The notes under the pieces are model-generated. The model ran no database searches. It worked only from the letters and a program-made list of their open reading frames with translations, and had not been told where the DNA came from. DNA of 36,054 bases from Lachnospiraceae bacterium. GTDB lineage: Bacteria; Bacillota; Clostridia; Lachnospirales; Lachnospiraceae. Both the position numbers and the translations under genes were made by a program. The stretch spans positions 1 to 36,054 of the forward strand of contig JAETON010000026.1 of assembly GCA_021771695.1 (NCBI GenBank). The letters run 5' to 3'. Numbering within the stretch: position 1 is the stretch's first letter; each line of letters begins with the position of its first letter. This document shows, piece by piece, positions 2,004-13,107 of the stretch.

Positions 2004-2040
2004 AGTAATCCTTCTTTTCCTTTAATATTTTGTCGAAATT

Positions 2041-2049
2041 TGCTATAAT
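2041..2049 (+). promoter_or_regulatory. Extended -10 promoter for the DUF5717 operon
   Basis: TGCTATAAT is a perfect extended -10 (TGn TATAAT, hexamer 2044-2049). The -35 at 17-bp spacing (TTTAAT, 2021-2026) is weak, as extended -10 promoters tolerate. It lies in the divergent gap between the aminotransferase and the 1043-residue gene, about 73 bases before its start codon. Confidence 0.55.
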
Positions 2050-2121: not shown

Positions 2122-5100
2122 ATGATGACAGAACAGTTACAGAGTTTTATAAATATGGTGAAAGAAGATAAAAAGAGAGCGAAAGCACTCTTTTTTTCAG
2201 AGTCCTTTAAAGAAGATTATCTAGAGGACTGCAAGGAATATAAAGAAATATACCATCAATTGCTGCTGGGGAGAAATAGAGAACAGATTTTAGAAGAGTT
2301 TTTAATAACAATTGGGGGAAAAGAACCAGTTCGTTTATCCGCAGTGAAAGATCGATATACGGTTTCCAAAGAACAATTAGATGAACCGTTGGAGATTTTT
2401 GTGAAAAAAGAAGGATGGGGATACGTGGAAGGGAAAGTTTCCGTGGACAGCAGTTTTTTATCGCTGGAGAAAGATTCCTTTGAAGAAGCAGATTTTGAAG
2501 ATGGGATGATGACTTTATATGTTTATTTAAGTGATCTGCCGGAGGATGGAAGCCAAGCAGAGATTCAGATTGCCTCCATAACGGGAACGCTGGATATTCA
2601 GGTAGTATTTCAGGAAAATCAAGACGTGGATGCACAGCAGGAGAAGTCAAAACGCAAAAAGATGTTCCAGACGTACGTAGATTTTTGTGCCGGAAGAATT
2701 TCTTTGGAAAAATTTCTGGAAAGAGAAAAAAGCATTTTGAAGCAGATGCCGCAGACAGCCCAAAAGAAAAATTTTTATTCGTTGTTTGAACTGCATCTTA
2801 GAATTTTGGGAAAAGAAAAAGATTTGGATTTGGAAATGGAAGCAGCCGGCCCAAATGTAGAAAATGATAGGATTATGTACAGTTATGTTTGTTATTTGTC
2901 TGCGCTTTATGAGAAAACAGAGACTGCAATTTTGGATGCAGTTAGGGAAATTCAGTCTGCCTATGAAACAGAGACGCCAAAAGGCTTTCTTCTGTGGCTT
3001 CGGATGAATTTGGATGCATCCGTTGCATATGATGCAAATGCAGCAATGCAGGAAATCAAAGAAGTATTTATGGAAAACGGCAAAAATTGTCTGCTTCAAT
3101 TTGAAGCCTCCTGTTTATTTGGAGAGACACCGGATCTTTTGCATAGATTAGGCTCTTTCGAGATGGAAATTTTAGAATTTGCAGCAAAGGAAAAACTTCT
3201 AAATGATAAGCTGATTCAAAGAATTTGCTTTTTAGTATCTAAAGAGAAAACATTTTCAGAAGAAATGCTTTGGCTTTTGCTTTGTATTTATAAAGAGTAT
3301 CCGTATGTTAGTGTATTGCAGGGCATATGTGCATTATTGATTCAGGGCAATTGTATGGACGATGACTGCCACCTGTATTTTAAAAGAGCCATTGCGGAAG
3401 GAATTCAGTTGATTGGACTGCAGGAAGCTTTTCTTCGGACGATACCGGATGGAGAATATCCGGTGCTTCCGGAAGAAACCTTGACATATTTCACATACAG
3501 CAATAGTTTGAGCAGACAGGAGCAGAGTGCACTTTATGCCAATGTAGTGAAAAATAAAAACCGGTATCGAAATATTTTTTCAAATTATGAAGAATTGATA
3601 CGCCCGTTTTTGGAAGAAGAATTAAAAAAAGGGCATCTAAACCGTCATCTATTGTTATTATATCAAGCATACTTTGAAGAGTTTTTGGAAGACGAAAAAG
3701 TAAGAGACAGTCTTGGGAATGTTTTATTTTATCGGGAATTGATCTGTGACCAGCAGTTTTTAAAGAAAGTTATGGTTTTTCAAAAACAGAAAAAACAGCC
3801 GGATACAAAATTTTTAAATGGGCAGACCACATATATGGAAATTTATGATGCAGATGCTCTGGCAGTCTTTTTTGACCAAGAAGAAAACCGCTATGTGGGT
3901 TCTGTTTCTTATCAATGGAAATCTATTTGGAAGAAAGAACAGATACGGACATATTGTGAGAAAAATCATTGCCGCAATGAACATTTTCTATTATATAAAA
4001 GTGTAGAATACGGTATTCGGCAGGAACTTTGCAAAGAGGACTTCCCCACTGTTTTGTCCGTCATTGACTGCGGCCAGTTAAATGAAGCATATCAGCAGAA
4101 TATTTTTGAGAAGGTGCTGGAATATTATTGGAAACATGGAGAAGAAGAACAGTTAAAAGAGGCACTTGCCTATGTGGATTGGAAAAAGCTGCCGGTTCAA
4201 AATAGAATTCATATGATAGAATATTTTATCGCAGGCGGATTGTATGATGAAGCACTAAAAGGAATCGGACAGTATGGATATCAGTTTATTCAGCCGGAGT
4301 TGTTAAAAGAGGTTTGTTTATATGCTTTGACAACACTAAGTACCAGACGTTCTGATATGCTGGTGGGAATGTGCAGCCGGGCATTTGAGTGCGGACAGTA
4401 TAACAGTGAGATGCTTGGGTATCTTCAAAAATATTTTAAAGGGACGAAAGACCAGATGCTGGCTTTATGGGAACATGGACAAAAAAGCGGGATGTATCAG
4501 AAAGAATTTATGGAAGAAACCCTGCGCGCATGTATTCGAGATGGTATTGACGGTAAAGAATTTTCGGTTTTCTCTGAATATTTAAAGCGGGCAGACAGGC
4601 AGTCTGGCGTTGTGGATGCGATGCTGGTAGAATATGTGGCTTTTGCTTGGAACCGCCGCCAAAAACTGCCGGAAGAGTTTTATGAATTGATTGGAAAGAA
4701 GCTGGATGCGGGGAAAATGGACCGTTTGTACCAAGGACTTTATTTAGAATATTATAAGGATAAGGAATTGACATTCGTACAAAAACGACGGATTGAAAAA
4801 ATAAAGGAAATGCAGATTTATACAGGAGATATTCTTCCAGTATTGTTTGAATATTCTGAAGAAGTAGAACTGCCCAAATATTTATATGCCAAAACGTTTA
4901 TTGAATATCAGGCAGAAAAAGGGCTGATGCTGACATTTCATTATGCAGGCTCCAGAGGACAGCAGTGGAGAGAACTTTCTATGAAAGAATTGCTGCCGGG
5001 ATACTATGTAACTTCTGCTGTGATTTTTGCAGATGAGATTATGGATTGCTTTATTACAGCTCCGGGAGAAGAAAAGCGGAGAAGAAAAGATATATTTTTT

Positions 5101-5253
5101 GCAGACCATATTGACAAAAGCAAGGGAAGCAGATTTTATGAGCTGAATGAGATGTTAAAGGAAAAACATAGGGATTCAATACAAAGTTCTATGGAACAGT
5201 ATATGATAAAGAAAAGTATGATTGAGTTTATGAAACCAATGACAGGGGATTAA
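2122..5253 (+). CDS. Large protein of unknown function, DUF5717-like (1043 aa)
   Basis: I recognise this from memory as the Lachnospiraceae DUF5717 type; its function is unknown. Residues about 80-180 look like a beta-sandwich (LEIFVKKEGWGYVEGKVSVD... then TLDIQVVF). Roughly 200-900 is helical, with TPR/HAT-like spacing (for example NEAYQQNIFEKVLEYYWKHG, GLYDEALKGIGQYGYQF). The last 140 residues return to beta strands. No signal peptide, membrane segment or catalytic motif is visible, so a cytoplasmic scaffold is likely. Start: ATG at 2122, with AAGGAG at 2108-2113 and eight bases spacing; an in-frame GTG at 2062 lacks a ribosome site. The next gene begins three bases after the stop. Confidence 0.85.
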   Translation: MMTEQLQSFINMVKEDKKRAKALFFSESFKEDYLEDCKEYKEIYHQLLLGRNREQILEEFLITIGGKEPVRLSAVKDRYTVSKEQLDEPLEIFVKKEGWGYVEGKVSVDSSFLSLEKDSFEEADFEDGMMTLYVYLSDLPEDGSQAEIQIASITGTLDIQVVFQENQDVDAQQEKSKRKKMFQTYVDFCAGRISLEKFLEREKSILKQMPQTAQKKNFYSLFELHLRILGKEKDLDLEMEAAGPNVENDRIMYSYVCYLSALYEKTETAILDAVREIQSAYETETPKGFLLWLRMNLDASVAYDANAAMQEIKEVFMENGKNCLLQFEASCLFGETPDLLHRLGSFEMEILEFAAKEKLLNDKLIQRICFLVSKEKTFSEEMLWLLLCIYKEYPYVSVLQGICALLIQGNCMDDDCHLYFKRAIAEGIQLIGLQEAFLRTIPDGEYPVLPEETLTYFTYSNSLSRQEQSALYANVVKNKNRYRNIFSNYEELIRPFLEEELKKGHLNRHLLLLYQAYFEEFLEDEKVRDSLGNVLFYRELICDQQFLKKVMVFQKQKKQPDTKFLNGQTTYMEIYDADALAVFFDQEENRYVGSVSYQWKSIWKKEQIRTYCEKNHCRNEHFLLYKSVEYGIRQELCKEDFPTVLSVIDCGQLNEAYQQNIFEKVLEYYWKHGEEEQLKEALAYVDWKKLPVQNRIHMIEYFIAGGLYDEALKGIGQYGYQFIQPELLKEVCLYALTTLSTRRSDMLVGMCSRAFECGQYNSEMLGYLQKYFKGTKDQMLALWEHGQKSGMYQKEFMEETLRACIRDGIDGKEFSVFSEYLKRADRQSGVVDAMLVEYVAFAWNRRQKLPEEFYELIGKKLDAGKMDRLYQGLYLEYYKDKELTFVQKRRIEKIKEMQIYTGDILPVLFEYSEEVELPKYLYAKTFIEYQAEKGLMLTFHYAGSRGQQWRELSMKELLPGYYVTSAVIFADEIMDCFITAPGEEKRRRKDIFFADHIDKSKGSRFYELNEMLKEKHRDSIQSSMEQYMIKKSMIEFMKPMTGD

Positions 5254-5256
5254 TGT

Positions 5257-6303
5257 ATGCAGACAGGAATACATTTTGAAAATGGACAGGCTTATGCCTG
5301 CCGTATGGATGGACAAAGGACAATTGAACAGGAACCGGAAAGAATGCAGGGAGCATGGACAGATTATATAGCGGAAAATGTATCCCAAGGAGAACTGGGA
5401 AGTGACAGCATTGGTATTGTCATGGATGGAATCACTCCGGAAATTATGGAAGAAGCTGGGAAACTTTGTCAGCAGCTGGGGCTGCCGTCGGGCGGCGTGA
5501 AATTATATACAAAAGAGGAAGCTGTGGTAGGACTGGTAAGACTCCAGAAGGATGAACTGGATCGTGGAAATACGGCAGTGTTTGATTATACCCAAAGTGG
5601 TTTTTATTATTATGAAGTGAAAAAGAGAAATGGGCAGATTTTAGTAAAGCGGCAGGATTATACGTCGGAGATTGCAGAGGCATCTGCAAAAACAGAAAAA
5701 GATCAGGCGTTTGTTCGGATTATTAAAAAAGCATTGGCAAAAGGTGTTACTGCAACGGTTTATTTGTGTGGTGACGGTTTTGACGGACAGTGGTTTCAAG
5801 AATCTACCAGAGTGCTTTGTATGGGAAGAAGAGTGTTTATGGGAAAACATCTTTATGCCAGCGGAGCAGCGTATTTGTCCGGGGAAGAGGTGTTTGAAAA
5901 GAGCTGTGAAGATGCCGTCATTCTTACAGAAACAATGACAATGTGTCAGATCGGACTAACGCTTCATCATCATGGAAGAGATGTATTTTATCCATTGATG
6001 AAGGAGGGAAGACCGTGGTTTGAAAGTAAGGGAGAGATGGAATTGTTTGTTTCTGATATTTCCAGCCTTACTTTTGAGCTTCGCAGTAAAGCAGGGATTA
6101 AGCAGGCAATGGTATGTTTTCCGCTGACCGGAATGATAAAAAATAAAGATATTGTGTATCAGTTGAAAGTACAGGGAGAGTATTTAGCACCGGACCGATG
6201 CAGAATCAAGGTATCTGATCAGGGATTTGGAAATATCCGGCCATCTGGTTTTCAAGTATGGCAGCAGGACATCTATTTAGAAAGAGGTGATTTCCGTGAG
6301 TAA
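5257..6303 (+). CDS. Hsp70/actin-fold-like protein of unknown function, DUF5716-like
   Basis: 348 residues, resembling DUF5716 as I remember it. The layout suggests a degenerate Hsp70/actin ATPase fold. The N-terminal strand pair TGIHFENGQAYACRM stands where Hsp70 has phosphate loop 1. TAVFDYTQSGFYYYEV (about 108-123) stands where the DxGGGT loop would be, and TVYLCGDGFDGQWF (about 166-179) resembles the adenosine GG loop. Key acidic and glycine residues of loops 1 and 2 are not conserved, so it may not hydrolyse ATP. The C-terminal 120 residues look beta-rich (IRPSGFQVWQQDIYLERGD). Start: ATG 5257 with AGGGGA six bases upstream. It is sandwiched between its partner genes with near-zero gaps, implying a complex. 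No membrane segment is seen. Confidence 0.78.
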   Translation: MQTGIHFENGQAYACRMDGQRTIEQEPERMQGAWTDYIAENVSQGELGSDSIGIVMDGITPEIMEEAGKLCQQLGLPSGGVKLYTKEEAVVGLVRLQKDELDRGNTAVFDYTQSGFYYYEVKKRNGQILVKRQDYTSEIAEASAKTEKDQAFVRIIKKALAKGVTATVYLCGDGFDGQWFQESTRVLCMGRRVFMGKHLYASGAAYLSGEEVFEKSCEDAVILTETMTMCQIGLTLHHHGRDVFYPLMKEGRPWFESKGEMELFVSDISSLTFELRSKAGIKQAMVCFPLTGMIKNKDIVYQLKVQGEYLAPDRCRIKVSDQGFGNIRPSGFQVWQQDIYLERGDFRE

Positions 6304-7096
6304 AATTGTATTATGTGAAACTCAGAGAGCGGCAGTGCCTTATCATATTGAAAAAATCAATCAGTCCTTTTCAAGTTATGGAGAATTGTGTTATCTTTTA
6401 GAACACTATTTGATTTTTTTCCTGATTGAGGGATTTGATAAATCTTTTAAAACGTATTTGAGAGAAGAACTTGGAATAGAACTTAGCGGGGATGATCCGG
6501 TCCGGCAGATAAAAGAAATAATAAGTTTTCGGAATTATTTTACTGCAGACGAGAGATTACAATTTCAGCAGAAGATACGAACTGCTTATTTGTATTCTGC
6601 AGCGAAAAAACAAAAGATACTGGCAGATTTATATTTAAAGCATCATTTATATTTAGGAGCTTTGCAGGTATATCAAAACCTTCAAAAAATTTCCGGACAG
6701 CTTCGAGCTGGAGAACAGGCGGAAATTTTGTTCCATATGGGATTATGCCAAAGCAGAATGTTTTGTTTGGATGAAGCAAAAGAATCTTTTCGGAAGGCGC
6801 TGTTGATTCGAGAACGAAAAGAAATTCAAGAAGCATACTTTTTAGTATCTTACTTACAAGGAGATTATCGGACATTTCTTCAAGATGGGGAGAAAATTTC
6901 TTTTTCCAAGGACCGCTGCAAGCTTATTTATGGTAATATAAAGCAGAGAGAAGAAGAAATCAAAGATCAAGAAGAGTTTGTCAAATTGAAGAAAATAGAT
7001 TACCATAGAAAGAAAGCAGATGACATAATGACAAGAAGGCTTACAAAAGCTGTACTGGAGAAGTGGAAAGATGAATACAAAAAAGAGATTATCTGA
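6296..7096 (+). CDS. TPR-like protein of unknown function (GTG start)
   Basis: 266 residues. Residues about 100-190 read as TPR-like helix pairs (KILADLYLKHHLYLGALQVY, then ILFHMGLCQSRMFCLDEAKE and SFRKALLIRERKEIQEAYF). The C-terminal 60 residues are very rich in Lys and Glu and probably form a long helix or coil. Start: GTG at 6296, overlapping the stop of the previous gene by eight bases, with GAGGTGA just upstream; an in-frame GTG at 6287 lies inside that ribosome site and is unlikely. The overlaps at both ends (the next gene starts 26 bases before this stop) imply coupled translation. I see no enzymatic motif; it may adapt the Hsp70-like protein to clients or to the membrane protein. Confidence 0.75.
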   Translation: MSKIVLCETQRAAVPYHIEKINQSFSSYGELCYLLEHYLIFFLIEGFDKSFKTYLREELGIELSGDDPVRQIKEIISFRNYFTADERLQFQQKIRTAYLYSAAKKQKILADLYLKHHLYLGALQVYQNLQKISGQLRAGEQAEILFHMGLCQSRMFCLDEAKESFRKALLIRERKEIQEAYFLVSYLQGDYRTFLQDGEKISFSKDRCKLIYGNIKQREEEIKDQEEFVKLKKIDYHRKKADDIMTRRLTKAVLEKWKDEYKKEII

Positions 7097-8069
7097 GGAT
7101 ATTCAAAATACAAAAGAAATATTACTGGAAGAACGGCTTGTTACTTTGTATGAAGACGAAATTGCTCATTTGCTGGCGAGAAAAGATGACCTTGAGAAGG
7201 TCGGACGTCTGAATGAAGAAGAAGCAAAAGAAGTGGAAGAGGCTGCAAGACTTTATAATCGTGTATTTGCAAGAAATTTTTATGAGACATCCGGAGGAAG
7301 AATTACGGATGAGGAATTTCTTCCGTTATGGGAGCGTGAAGATGAGTTAAAAAAAGGACTTCAGAAAATCCAATCTTTAGAAGGTGAAAAAAAACAGTTG
7401 GAAAAAGAAATGGATATTGTGATTGAGGAAGAGGCAGATTTGATTCAAATGACAAAAAGAGCAGAAGAAAAGCGAGTCAATCAAAAGGCTGTGTTCCGTT
7501 CTTTTGTTATTATGGCATTTGCAGCATTGATTTTTTTTGTGGCAGCAGTATTATACTTTGAATTTCCCATAAGGGAATATGTCTGGCCGGCAGTGGCGGC
7601 CGTATTAGTTGTCATTTTATTTTTGGTCATTTTGTATCATATCCAGAAGAAAGCAGTGGAAAGTGAGAAGCTGTATCGGATGATGAGTAATCACAAATTC
7701 AATTCTAAGTGCCGCTTGGAATCAGATTATCAGAATATTGGAAATGATTTGAAATATTACTATGAGAAATTTGAAGTTTTATTTGGATATATTTCTGAGG
7801 AACAGTGGAAATTATTTGAATTTTGTGCTAAAGTTTCAGCCGGGCTTAAATTTTGCGGAGAGATAGAGGAAAAGGCCAAGGAGCTTCGACAGGTTCTTGA
7901 CAAGTACCATTTGGAGGAGATTGACGCATGGCTTTATTATCCGAAAGCTCTCTATGAAATACCAAAGCGGATTCAGTGTTTAGAACGGCTGAATTACCGG
8001 CAGAATATTTGTGAACAAGCCATGGTAAAACATGAGAGGGAAATTAATCAAAATAGAAATAACGAATAA
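7071..8069 (+). CDS. Coiled-coil membrane protein of unknown function, two TM segments
   Basis: 332 residues. The N-terminal 140 residues are charged and helical with heptad-like stretches (ELKKGLQKIQSLEGEKKQLE, 92-111), probably a coiled coil. Two hydrophobic segments follow, about 141-162 (VFRSFVIMAFAALIFFVAAV) and 171-190, joined by a short loop, so both long arms should face the cytoplasm. The C-terminal 140 residues are again soluble and helical. There is no signal peptide and no known domain that I can name. The start overlaps the TPR-like gene by 26 bases, so it belongs to the same unit and likely anchors it to the membrane. Confidence 0.78.
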   Translation: MNTKKRLSEDIQNTKEILLEERLVTLYEDEIAHLLARKDDLEKVGRLNEEEAKEVEEAARLYNRVFARNFYETSGGRITDEEFLPLWEREDELKKGLQKIQSLEGEKKQLEKEMDIVIEEEADLIQMTKRAEEKRVNQKAVFRSFVIMAFAALIFFVAAVLYFEFPIREYVWPAVAAVLVVILFLVILYHIQKKAVESEKLYRMMSNHKFNSKCRLESDYQNIGNDLKYYYEKFEVLFGYISEEQWKLFEFCAKVSAGLKFCGEIEEKAKELRQVLDKYHLEEIDAWLYYPKALYEIPKRIQCLERLNYRQNICEQAMVKHEREINQNRNNE

Positions 8070-8093: not shown

Positions 8094-10733
8094 ATGAAGA
8101 AAGAATTAGAAAAAACTTACAATCCGGGTGCTATTGAGGAGCGCCTGTATCAAAAGTGGATGGATAACAAGTATTTTCATGCGGAAGTAGACCGCACAAA
8201 GAAACCATATACGATTGTGATTCCACCGCCAAATATTACAGGAAAGCTTCATATGGGACATGCATTGGATGAAACGCTTCAGGACATTTTGATTCGTTTC
8301 AAAAAAATGCAGGGATTTAATACTTTGTGGCAGCCGGGAACGGATCATGCAAGTATTGCTACAGAGGTTAAAATCATCAATGCGTTAAAAGAAGAAGGTA
8401 TTGATAAAGAAGATTTGGGACGCGAAAAGTTTTTGGAGCGTGCATGGGAATGGAAAGAAGAATACGGCGGAACGATTGTCAGCCAGTTAAAGAAATTAGG
8501 TTCTGCATGTGACTGGGATCGAGAGCGTTTTACGCTGGATGAAGGATGTTCCAAAGCGGTACAGGAAGTATTTATTAAATTATATGAAAAAGGATATATT
8601 TACAGAGGTTCCAGAATTATCAACTGGTGTCCGGTCTGTCAGACATCTATTTCTGATGCAGAGGTAGAATACGAAGATCAAGCAGGACATTTCTGGCACA
8701 TTAAGTATCCGGTGGTTGGAAGTGACGAATATGTAGAAATCGCAACGACACGTCCGGAAACACTGCTTGGAGATACTGCAGTTGCAGTTCATCCGGAAGA
8801 TGAAAGGTATACTCACCTGGTAGGAAAAATGTTAGAGCTGCCTTTATGTGATCGACAGATTCCAGTAGTAGCAGATGAATATGTTGACCGTGAATTTGGA
8901 ACTGGTGCAGTAAAAATTACGCCTGCCCATGATCCAAATGACTTTGAAGTTGGAAAGCGTCATCATCTGCCGGAAATTAATATTTTGAATGATGATGCTA
9001 CGATTAATCAAAATGGCGGGAAATATGCAGGGATGGATCGTTATGAAGCCAGAGAAGCCATGGTAAAAGATTTGGAAGAACAGGGATATCTTGTGAAAAT
9101 CAAAGACCACGAGCATAATGTAGGAACTCATGACCGCTGTGGAACAACCATTGAACCAATGGTAAAACCACAATGGTTTGTAAAAATGGATGAACTGGCC
9201 AAACCTGCCATTGAGGCAGTGAAAAATGGAGATTTGAAGTTTGTTCCGGAACGATATACCAAAACATATCTTCACTGGCTGGAAAACATTCGTGATTGGT
9301 GTATTTCCAGACAGTTATGGTGGGGACACCGGATTCCGGCATATTACTGTGATGAATGTGGAGAAGTGGTTGTTGCTGCTGAAGCACCGGAGGTATGTCC
9401 GAAATGCGGATGCAAGCATTTGACACAGGATGAAGATACTTTGGATACATGGTTCAGTTCTGCACTTTGGCCTTTCTCAACACTTGGATGGCCGGATAAG
9501 ACAGAGGAATTGGATTATTTCTATCCGACGAATACTTTGGTAACCGGATATGATATTATCTTTTTCTGGGTTGTACGAATGGTGTTCTCAGGATATGAAC
9601 ATACAGGGAAATGTCCATTTGACACTGTTTTAATTCATGGATTGGTTCGTGACGATCAGGGACGTAAGATGAGTAAATCTCTTGGAAACGGAATTGATCC
9701 GCTGGAAGTTATCACTCAATATGGTGCAGATGCATTGAGATTTACACTGGTAACAGGAAATGCACCGGGAAATGATATGCGTTTTTATATGGAACGTGTA
9801 GAAGCCAGCCGAAATTTTGCCAATAAGATTTGGAATGCATCCAGATTTATTATGATGAATATGGAACAGGCAGATTTTTCACAAGTTACATTGGATGATT
9901 TGACAAGTGCAGATAAATGGATTTTATCTAAGCTGAATACTTTGGCAAAAGATGTAACCGACAATATGGAAAAATATGAGCTGGGAATTGCCGTTCAAAA
10001 GTTGAATGATTTTCTTTGGGAAGAATTCTGTGACTGGTATATTGAAATGGTGAAACCTCGTCTGTACAATGACGAAGATGAAACAAAAGCGGCAGCTTTA
10101 TGGACGTTAAATACAGTACTTACAGAAGCTCTGAAACTGCTGCATCCATATATGCCGTTTATTACAGAAGAAATTTACTGCAATCTGACAGATGAAGAAT
10201 CTATCATGCTTGCGAAGTGGCCGGTATTTAAGGAAGAATGGAATTTTGAAAAAGATGAAAAAGCAGTGGAAACGATTAAAGAAGCAGTCCGCGGCATCCG
10301 AAATATCCGTGCAGAAATGAATGTATCTCCGAAGAAAAAAGCACAGGTATATGTCGTATCTGAAAATGTAGAAGTCAGAGATATCTTTGAGCAAGGGAAG
10401 GTGTTCTTTGCAACTCTTGGATATGCAAGTGAAGTAATTATCCAGAACGATCAGCAAGGAATCGGAGAAGACGCAGTTTCTACAGTGATTCCAGAGGCAG
10501 TGATTTATATGCCGTTTGCAGAGCTGGTTAATATTGCAAAAGAAAAAGAACGCCTTGCAAAAGAACAGAAGCGTCTAAATGGAGAAATCAAACGCTGCGA
10601 GGGAATGCTTGGAAATGAAAAATTTGTAAGTAAAGCACCGGCAGCAAAAGTTCAGGAAGAAAAAGATAAACTGGCAAAATATCAGCAGATGTTAGAACAG
10701 GTAGAAGGACAGCTTGCAAGATTAAATAAATAG
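8094..10733 (+). CDS. valS: Valyl-tRNA synthetase
   Basis: 879 residues, the usual length. It charges tRNA-Val with valine in the cytoplasm. The class I signatures are clear: [15 protein letters not shown] at 44-58 (HIGH motif) and KMSKS at 525-529. The editing (CP1) domain lies between them (for example [11 protein letters not shown]), and a C4 zinc knuckle CDECG...CPKCGC lies near residues 421-440. The last 70 residues form the ValRS C-terminal coiled-coil arm ([19 protein letters not shown]). Start: ATG 8094 with TAGGAG eight bases upstream. It begins 24 bases after the preceding operon with no T-box or separate promoter in between, so it is probably cotranscribed with that unit. Confidence 0.98.
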
Positions 10734-11163: not shown

Positions 11164-11934
11164 ATGAAACAGGATAAGTTAGTAATTGGCGGACATGAGT
11201 TTGATTCCAGATTTATTTTGGGCTCTGGAAAGTATTCTTTGGATTTAATCAATGCAGCAGTGCAGAATGCAGGAGCACAAATTATTACACTGGCACTCCG
11301 CAGAACCAATACGGGGGATACAGCAAATATTTTAGATTACATTCCAGAAGGGGTAACATTACTTCCGAATACATCCGGTGCAAGAAATGCAGAAGAAGCA
11401 GTGCGCATTGCAAGACTTGCCAGAGAAGTTGGATGCGGCGATTTCGTGAAAATTGAAGTGATTCATGATTCTAAATATCTGCTCCCGGATAATTATGAAA
11501 CAATCAAAGCAACAGAGATTCTTGCGAAAGAAGGATTTGTCGTTATGCCGTATATGTACCCGGATTTGAATGCAGCAAGAGATTTGGTGAATGCAGGAGC
11601 GGCTTCTATTATGCCTCTTGGAGCGCCAATTGGCTCTAATAAAGGTATTTGTACCAAAGATTTTATTCAGATTTTGATTGATGAAATTGATTTACCAATC
11701 ATTGTAGATGCTGGAATTGGAAAACCATCTCAGGCATGTGAAGCTATGGAAATGGGGGCAGCAGCAGTTATGGCAAATACAGCGATTGCAACAGCAGGAG
11801 ATATTCCGGCGATGGCAGAAGCATTTAAGAAAGCAATTGAAGCAGGAAGAAGTGCGTATCTTGCAGGACTTGGAAGAGTTATCGAAAAAGGCGGAAGTGC
11901 ATCATCACCATTGACAGGATTTTTAAAAGACTAG
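11164..11934 (+). CDS. thiG: Thiazole synthase ThiG
   Basis: A 256-residue TIM-barrel enzyme that condenses deoxyxylulose 5-phosphate, dehydroglycine and ThiS-thiocarboxylate into the thiazole phosphate. Visible are FILGSGKY at 18-24, TLALRR at 42-47, [15 protein letters not shown] (66-80), the imine-forming lysine K96 in FVKIEVI, and the phosphate-binding VDAGIGKPS and MANTAIA regions. Length is standard. Start: ATG 11164 with AAAGGAG upstream. It lies 44 bases after thiS and 9 bases before thiH; ThiG normally complexes with both neighbours. Confidence 0.97.
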
Positions 11935-11943
11935 GAGGGTATT

Positions 11944-13107
11944 ATGAGCAAGCGAATTGATAAAAACACGAACCACATGCAGTATACCGAGGATATGGAA
12001 GCGATTGACTCTGATATCATGGATCAGGTTATTGCAGAGATGGAAGCCTATGATGCTGCAAAATATACAGCAGCAGATGTAAAACGTGCATTGGATGCAG
12101 AAACTTGTTCTCCAGAAGATTTTAAAGCTTTACTTTCTCCGGCAGCACTTCCATTTTTGGAAGAAATCGCTCAAAAAGCACAAAAAGAAACAAGAAAACA
12201 TTTTGGAAATTCTGTGATGATGTTTACACCACTTTACATTGCCAATTATTGTGAGAATTACTGCATTTACTGTGGATTCAACTGCAACAATAAGATTAAA
12301 CGTGCGAAATTAAATACGGAAGAGATTGAAAAAGAAATGCGGACAATTGCAGAAACCGGATTGGAAGAAATTTTGATTCTGACTGGAGAAAGCCCGAATA
12401 TGTCCAGTGTGGAATATATCGGAGAAGCGTGTAAAATCGCAAGAAAATATTTTAAGGTAGTTGGATTGGAAGTATATCCGATGGATTCCAAGGATTATGC
12501 ATATCTCCATGAATGCGGAGCTGATTTTGTAACGGTGTTTCAGGAAACTTATAATTCAGAAAAATATAAAACACTGCATTTGGGCGGAAGAAAAAGAATT
12601 TTCCCATATCGTTTCAATGCACAGGAGCGTGCGGTTATGGGTGGTATCCGCGGAGTTGGTTTTGCGGCACTTCTTGGATTGGATGATTTCCGAAAGGATG
12701 CTTTGGCAACTGGAATGCATGCCTATTTATTACAGAGAAAATATCCTCATGCGGAAATTGCATTTTCTTGTCCGAGATTACGGCCAATTATCAATAATGA
12801 TAAAATTAATCCGAAAGATGTTCATGAACCTCAATTGCTGCAAGTTATCTGCGCCTATCGTATTTTTATGCCATTCGCAAGTATCACGATTTCCAGCAGA
12901 GAATGTGCAAGATTCCGTGATAATATCATTCAGATTGCAGCTACAAAGATTTCAGCAGGTGTCAATGTCGGAATCGGAGGTCATACTGGAGAAGAAAAAG
13001 GAGACGAGCAGTTTGAAATTGATGATGCAAGAAATGTAGAGGAAATCTATCAGATGATTGAAGAAAAAGGAATGCAGCCAGTTATGACGGATTATATTTA
13101 TGTATAG
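11944..13107 (+). CDS. thiH: 2-iminoacetate synthase ThiH (radical SAM)
   Basis: 387 residues. The radical SAM cluster motif CENYCIYC (C103, C107, C110; CX3CX2C) binds the 4Fe-4S cluster and SAM. The enzyme cleaves tyrosine to p-cresol and dehydroglycine, the nitrogen donor for ThiG in anaerobes; aerobes use ThiO instead, so its presence fits an anaerobic host. The ThiH/HydG-type sequence LTGESPNMSSVEYI and the C-terminal ITISSRECARFRD region are present. Start: ATG 11944 with TAGGAGG upstream. It is the last gene of the operon, followed by a clear terminator. Confidence 0.96.
   Translation: MSKRIDKNTNHMQYTEDMEAIDSDIMDQVIAEMEAYDAAKYTAADVKRALDAETCSPEDFKALLSPAALPFLEEIAQKAQKETRKHFGNSVMMFTPLYIANYCENYCIYCGFNCNNKIKRAKLNTEEIEKEMRTIAETGLEEILILTGESPNMSSVEYIGEACKIARKYFKVVGLEVYPMDSKDYAYLHECGADFVTVFQETYNSEKYKTLHLGGRKRIFPYRFNAQERAVMGGIRGVGFAALLGLDDFRKDALATGMHAYLLQRKYPHAEIAFSCPRLRPIINNDKINPKDVHEPQLLQVICAYRIFMPFASITISSRECARFRDNIIQIAATKISAGVNVGIGGHTGEEKGDEQFEIDDARNVEEIYQMIEEKGMQPVMTDYIYV

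Follow-up and report, generated by a model that had tools for sequence, protein, structure and literature searches.

What do four closely packed genes of a Lachnospiraceae genome derive from, and what might their products still do for the cell? The question is raised by contig JAETON010000026.1 of assembly GCA_021771695.1 (positions 1 to 36,054 of the forward strand; this whole stretch of 36,054 nucleotides is called the window), in which genes A, B, C and D are followed by valS. Our analyses suggest, with a probability that we put at roughly 0.6, that they represent the reduced and vertically inherited remnant of a multi-Hsp70 machine, in which B would act as a passive, membrane-tethered scaffold. 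Comparisons are made with other genomes of the same genus, with the surrounding family, which we take to be Lachnospiraceae, and with other families of the order.

A and B belong to the Pfam families that the initial annotation had named, A matching DUF5717_N (1.4e-158) and DUF5717 (1.4e-36) and B matching DUF5716_C (3.4e-64), all over the curated cut-offs. B itself gave no HSP70 match in the Pfam scan of the window's proteins, and neither its sequence alone nor a profile made from the B proteins of the family retrieved anything useful from the PDB; its link to Hsp70 is visible only through B1, a protein of a larger operon described below, through profile-profile comparison or through the fold. 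The Hsp70 fold foreseen in that annotation is borne out by profile and fold comparison: an actin-like nucleotide-binding domain fold is kept (predicted structure and fold search), as is the substrate-binding beta domain (alignment and predicted structure). The motifs of the ATP site are gone, GIHFENGQA, a gap and DYTQSGFY replacing GIDLGTTNS, K and DLGGGTFD. K70 and the phosphate-2 GGGT are absent from 20/20 B rows of the family, and the phosphate-1 GTTN from the 19/19 rows reaching that site (in the motif alignment row L079 starts inside the B gene, and a contig end truncates the B2 row L067). Subdomains IB and IIB, delimited by the E. coli boundaries shifted onto the alignment, amount to 3 and 9 residues in the B rows of the genus, compared to 52 and 83 in the genome's own DnaK, and the alpha-helical lid is lost, the genus rows having 16–17 residues after the beta domain, compared to 94 and 136 in two DnaK-like proteins. 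By alignment and model, B is a degenerate Hsp70 that keeps its substrate-binding beta domain, and more than just an actin-fold protein. It had been proposed as a nucleotide-binding or pseudo-ATPase subunit; the loss of motifs favours a pseudo-ATPase, and nucleotide binding found no support.

In an Hsp70 tree of 58 rows (including 14 of the family's 26 B rows and 6 of the genus's 11, with one broken B3 left out), B groups with B1, the motif-poor Hsp70 of the larger operon. The window's own genome has three PF00012 matches, namely two DnaK-like proteins, which pair together in the tree apart from B0, B2 and B3 of that operon, and a weak match of 340 residues that we took for MreB. The second DnaK-like protein (L081, G000:C87) has 585 residues as called and lies near DnaK in the tree. 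It is very probable that B is a pseudo-Hsp70 descended from the multi-Hsp70 operon.

This larger, multi-Hsp70 form of the locus is newly recognised here, and like the association with the flagellum it goes beyond what had been proposed for the window before. In L066, from another family, the gene order is A1, A2, B0, X, B1, B2, B3, C, D, where A1 and A2 are two parts of DUF5717 and C contains many TPR. B0 and B2 match HSP70 (1.8e-77 and 2.5e-57), B1 matches both DUF5716_C (1.6e-25) and HSP70 (1.7e-16), B3 combines HSP70 (2.2e-95) with VWA (1.2e-10), and X has a GrpE match at its C-terminus (1.4e-14), which is over the cut-off in all three further relatives scanned. The operon holds three motif-complete Hsp70s (B0, B2 and B3) and one motif-poor (B1). 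The VWA domain sits at the lid position of the Hsp70 in L066 (11595-13676) and its counterparts. At a cut of 1e-20, X is present in 83 of the 89 A-bearing genomes outside the family and in 2 genomes without A, and a genome-wide search at the same cut found it in 0/33 genomes of the family. No motif-complete Hsp70 stands at the locus within the family, orphan B0, B2 or B3 not having been searched elsewhere in the other family genomes. The direction of change would be loss within the family, the motif-complete Hsp70s and the GrpE protein having disappeared from the locus and the pseudo-Hsp70 having stayed.

The system of A and B looks confined to one order. PF18980 was found in 48 of 61 relatives (37/37 from the family and 11/24 from other families of the order) and PF18984 in 122 of 246 genomes over the order (33/33 and 89/213); over the class the latter occurs in 7 of 196 genomes, six from the family and one with a weak partial match below the cut-off, and over the phylum in 5 of 398, every one from the family. 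The Pfam family of A or B is present in 68/68 distinct genomes of the family (the PF18980 and PF18984 sets share 2), which, together with the conserved order in the named loci, argues that the arrangement is not due to chance. Named loci are 80 of the 510 found, and their titles are Lachnospiraceae or other Clostridia/Bacillota, except for two 'bacterium' and one Gastranaerophilales metagenome-assembled genome. A, B, C and D stand in a row in 71 of these 80; the other nine include contig ends (L140, L160) and several loci where a spurious overlapping open reading frame displaces a gene (e.g. L088, L143), and D is absent at L136. At L180 the gene caller placed no B despite 1.3 kb between A and C, and L186 stops after B. 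A, B and C occur together in 35 of 37 family genomes and are therefore a stable cassette; the L079 stretch begins inside B, and L056 (G030), from a small and incomplete genome, has B without A, C or D in a stretch of 20 kb. In L061 (9245-11386) B and C form a single open frame of 713 residues that includes a linker, an argument for direct contact between the two proteins. Within the window's genus all four frames are open in 11/11 genomes, with A, B and D shortened.

D, which matches no Pfam family over the cut-off, is a separate gene. Outside the family, 39 of 111 D-bearing genomes are without A, and inside it D is absent in 18 of 44 genera; the locus is 3+1 instead of the four-gene unit envisaged in the initial annotation. 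The junctions are as tight as claimed there (A/B +3, B/C -8 and C/D -26 bp), with +24 bp between D and valS. Outside the family 20 D loci were read; in 15 of them valS lies within three open reading frames downstream of D, and in three the same CobD-like gene that the window has stands upstream of D. A-C and D adjoin in families f1, f4 and f7, and the simplest history may be that A-B-C was inserted between the CobD-like gene and D-valS ahead of the split of these three. The neighbours of D that were scanned (L199, L200, L205, L209, L212, L214 and L216) are housekeeping genes or without match, and none is flagellar. Distances of 10–36 kb to fliG on some contigs had suggested that D lies near flagellar genes, a notion rejected in view of the adjoining valS and of the lack of any flagellar gene among the neighbours scanned. 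At L199 a sigma-70 family protein (11574-12248) follows directly after D, with fliG ~10 kb off. It seems that valS has joined the A-D transcript. Rfam returned nothing at the gathering threshold anywhere in the window, and T-box control of the unit there was rejected on that ground; of the seven relatives searched, L066, L207, L209 and L211 carry a T-box between D and valS and L063, L042 and L054 do not, and its lack before valS is not special to the genus, L063 and L054 being without it too.

The presence of D tends to follow that of the flagellum. Outside the family D was found in 111 of 213 genomes (E 1e-5 or better), and FliG in 107 of these 111 compared to 33 of 102 without D (Fisher 2e-25, kinship ignored). 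Inside the family, 68 genomes represent 44 genera, of which 25 have both, 15 neither, three FliG only and one D only, an agreement in 40 of 44 (Fisher 5e-8); in one of the genome sets used here D was judged at the locus only, except in G000 and G032. Within f11 (31 genomes among the matches listed) FliG is present in 7/7 genomes with D compared to 1/24 others. A accompanies FliG outside the family (78 of 89 genomes, compared to 62 of 124 without A) and has no association with it inside. Sporulation was rejected as the linked trait: outside the family Spo0A occurs in 71 of 89 genomes with A and in 100 of 124 that lack it, and inside the family in 14 of 33; between Spo0A and D there is no association outside the family (p 0.86). 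Of the family genomes with FliG, those of the three FliG-only genera give the weakest FliG scores. In the family genomes with FliG and without D (L050, L052, L182 and L183; G023, G025, G520 and G620) FliG scores ~1e-38, compared to 1e-43 to 1e-46, and these genera perhaps possess a different flagellum. We give even odds to a functional tie between D and flagella.

How the proteins might work together is suggested by their folds. The helical repeats plus beta structure that the initial annotation ascribed to A are seen in its predicted structure, an Ig/PapD-like beta domain within a TPR-like solenoid, plus two more beta regions. Its profile found no relative among PDB sequences (a single match at E 0.96), and the solenoid is not assigned to any particular family, since Foldseek matched generic solenoids only (best E 1.2e-5, TM mostly 0.1–0.2). 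C has one TPR recognised by Pfam (2.5e-4, below the curated cut-off), and its relatives outside the family are longer and have more TPR repeats. The two transmembrane segments with long coils attributed to D are supported by hydropathy and reading; D has 332 residues in the window compared to about 390–440 in most other genera, and the PDB matches of its profile are assorted coiled coils (best E 0.0016). NCBIfam gave no match over the cut-off for A, B, C or D. On the proposed mechanism, B would be a passive module that binds peptides or proteins and serves assembly, with no ATP cycle; A and C would hold B and gather clients, and D would anchor the complex at the membrane's inner face by means of its hairpin, whose two coiled-coil arms would both lie in the cytoplasm.

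That A, B, C and D form such a membrane-tethered scaffold we consider somewhat the likelier case; the earlier scaffold idea is supported as a reading, and its cellular role is one that we infer. In flagellated relatives the likeliest client or site would be the flagellar apparatus or something assembled along with it, because the presence of D largely tracks the flagellum across the order. The further step, that A, B and C act through D on flagella, is doubtful. In the window's genus, where A, B and D are shortened and FliG is lacking, the complex must serve another or a broader purpose, and the trimmed proteins may persist for a second role. Speculatively, and against the odds as we see them, an undescribed order-wide machine would couple Hsp70s to the flagellum at the membrane. 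It would consist of a split A, three motif-complete Hsp70s (one of them with VWA), a GrpE-domain protein as its own exchange factor, a pseudo-Hsp70, a TPR protein and the hairpin protein D, whose gene mostly lies apart next to valS; in the family the pseudo-Hsp70 would have survived as a scaffold, now adjoining D, and been re-used in genera without the flagellum.

Several observations weigh against this flagellar connection. The window's genus (11 genomes) keeps D without FliG; A or B is present in all 68 family genomes regardless of FliG; and D adjoins valS in 15/20 loci, among neighbours that are housekeeping genes where scanned. Furthermore, the phylogeny-corrected test of D and FliG is borderline: inside the family 4–6 of 6 independent pairs agree and none is opposite (p 0.03–0.125), and starting from FliG 5–6 of 8 agree, again with none opposite (p 0.03–0.06), on a tree from which L056 and L079 were left out for want of A in their stretch. 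All this would suit a membrane-associated scaffold for general proteostasis that plays no part in the flagellum, D and fliG having been lost together with many other genes in sessile gut lineages, an explanation that we regard as a serious contender, a little short of an even chance. However, Spo0A is likewise dispensable and is unlinked to D outside the family, and the link between D and FliG recurs across families of different history, such as f11.

Other explanations concern B and the locus as a whole. Were B still an active, cycling Hsp70 using the cellular DnaJ and GrpE, one would point to the actin-like fold kept in its model, to a glycine stretch (YLCGDGF) at the adenosine-motif position and to the phosphate-1 GxDLG that remains in some family rows outside the genus; yet K70, GGGT and GTTN are gone from every family row that reaches their sites, IIB is deleted, and in the window's genus IB too, which makes activity extremely improbable. 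Decay to a relic without present function would be clearest in the window's genus, where A, B and D are trimmed, and the G030 locus retains B only, but the four frames remain open in all genomes of the genus and invariant residues are common to genus and family, and we think this very unlikely. Just as unlikely is that the locus is a defence (biological-conflict) system like the GAP1-N2/HSP70-GrpE ones (Kaur et al. 2020). The neighbourhoods described in the relevant passages of PMC7159879, with HSP70, GrpE and FNIII-DnaJ/TPR, do recall the L066 operon with its Hsp70s, GrpE, VWA and TPR; but neither the nine L066 products nor A-D contain a GTPase or known effector domain (by Pfam; the padloc library was not searched), and there is one match per listed family genome, present in all examined, unlike a patchy island.

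Coordinates of the features are collected below. At the start of A, AAGGAG stands just before the ATG at 2122, and an in-frame GTG lies further upstream at 2062; the frame of C opens with GTG at 6287, and the in-frame GTG at 6296 yields the 8-base overlap with B. The promoter-like site was one of 28 in a consensus scan compared to 26.5 expected by chance, and is weak alone. Elsewhere in the window, positions 79-783 hold a group II intron reverse transcriptase/maturase fragment without its N-terminal part, the frame opening at 79, and the region 11164-32320 contains, where scanned, ordinary metabolic and housekeeping genes: thiG, thiH, orotidylate, dihydroorotate and purine genes, a D-Ala-D-Ala carboxypeptidase, a permease and a Clp-type ATPase.

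Table 1. Positions of genes, domains and signals in and around the A-D locus of the window.
Feature	Position	Strand	Basis
CobD/HisC-like aminotransferase, upstream of A	918-2003	opposite strand	Pfam, NCBIfam scans
Promoter-like site upstream of A, TTAATA-16-TATAAT, TG before second hexamer	2022..2049	+	consensus scan
A: DUF5717 protein, 1043 aa	2122..5253	+	ORF list, Pfam, predicted structure
A residues 67-168: PapD-like (Ig-like) beta sandwich	2320..2625	+	predicted structure
B: DUF5716 protein, degenerate Hsp70, 348 aa	5257..6303	+	Pfam, tree, motifs, fold
B residues 1-221: Hsp70 nucleotide-binding domain remnant, without phosphate-1/phosphate-2 motifs, IB and IIB	5257..5919	+	
B residues 226-348: retained Hsp70 substrate-binding beta domain	5932..6300	+	
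C: TPR protein	6296..7096	+	Pfam, relatives
D: two-transmembrane hairpin, coiled coils on both sides, 332 aa	7071..8069	+	hydropathy, reading
D first transmembrane segment, residues 144-163	7500..7559	+	hydropathy and reading
D second transmembrane segment, residues 173-191	7587..7643	+	hydropathy and reading
valS	8094..10733	+	TIGR00422 over cut-off

Two unannotated Pfam families, found in every genome examined of the family that we take to be Lachnospiraceae, gain a concrete identity and an evolutionary origin. It is unusual for a pseudo-enzyme to outlast the catalytic siblings linked to it, and this makes a non-ATPase role of the Hsp70 fold testable. If the link of D to the flagellum is true, D may be a new accessory motility factor in a family that is dominant among gut bacteria.

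Among known proteins, Ssz1 offers one parallel to B. An atypical Hsp70 belonging to the ribosome-associated complex of yeast, Ssz1 is non-hydrolysing, lidless and the partner of another protein, and its structures are among the fold and profile matches of B. It still binds ATP (title of PDB entry 4gni), whereas B is more degraded, and the Ssz1 complex differs further in that A, C and D contain no J-domain partner (no DnaJ match by Pfam). With canonical Hsp70 (DnaK; PF00012) B shares both domain folds, the substrate-binding beta sandwich and kinship through B1, but it is without the ATP-site motifs, IB, IIB and lid, and no GrpE or DnaJ is linked to it in the window. A and B are members of DUF5717 and DUF5716, Pfam names that carry no function. 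In the open-licence literature of PubMed Central we found no description of the operon or its parts, and a single mention of DUF5716, in a paper whose title points to an unrelated subject. HSP70 together with GrpE occurs at the locus in the multi-Hsp70 relatives and not in the window. In the pertinent passages of Kaur et al. (eLife 2020, PMC7159879), firmicute and actinobacterial GAP1-N2 neighbourhoods combine HSP70 and GrpE, sometimes with a second, reduced HSP70, and with FNIII fused to DnaJ/TPR; the reduced second HSP70 and the beta-domain DnaJ/TPR protein, like the HSP70-GrpE pair, resemble the multi-Hsp70 relatives. As those passages describe them, such neighbourhoods have a GTPase core, of which neither the L066 operon nor A-D gave a match (in scans without a GAP1-specific profile), whereas the system described here has three motif-complete Hsp70s beside one motif-poor, and is present throughout the family, there without the GrpE protein. 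As far as that part of the paper (PMC7159879) goes, the HSP70-GrpE theme of the GAP1-N2 neighbourhoods is the nearest published system that we found.

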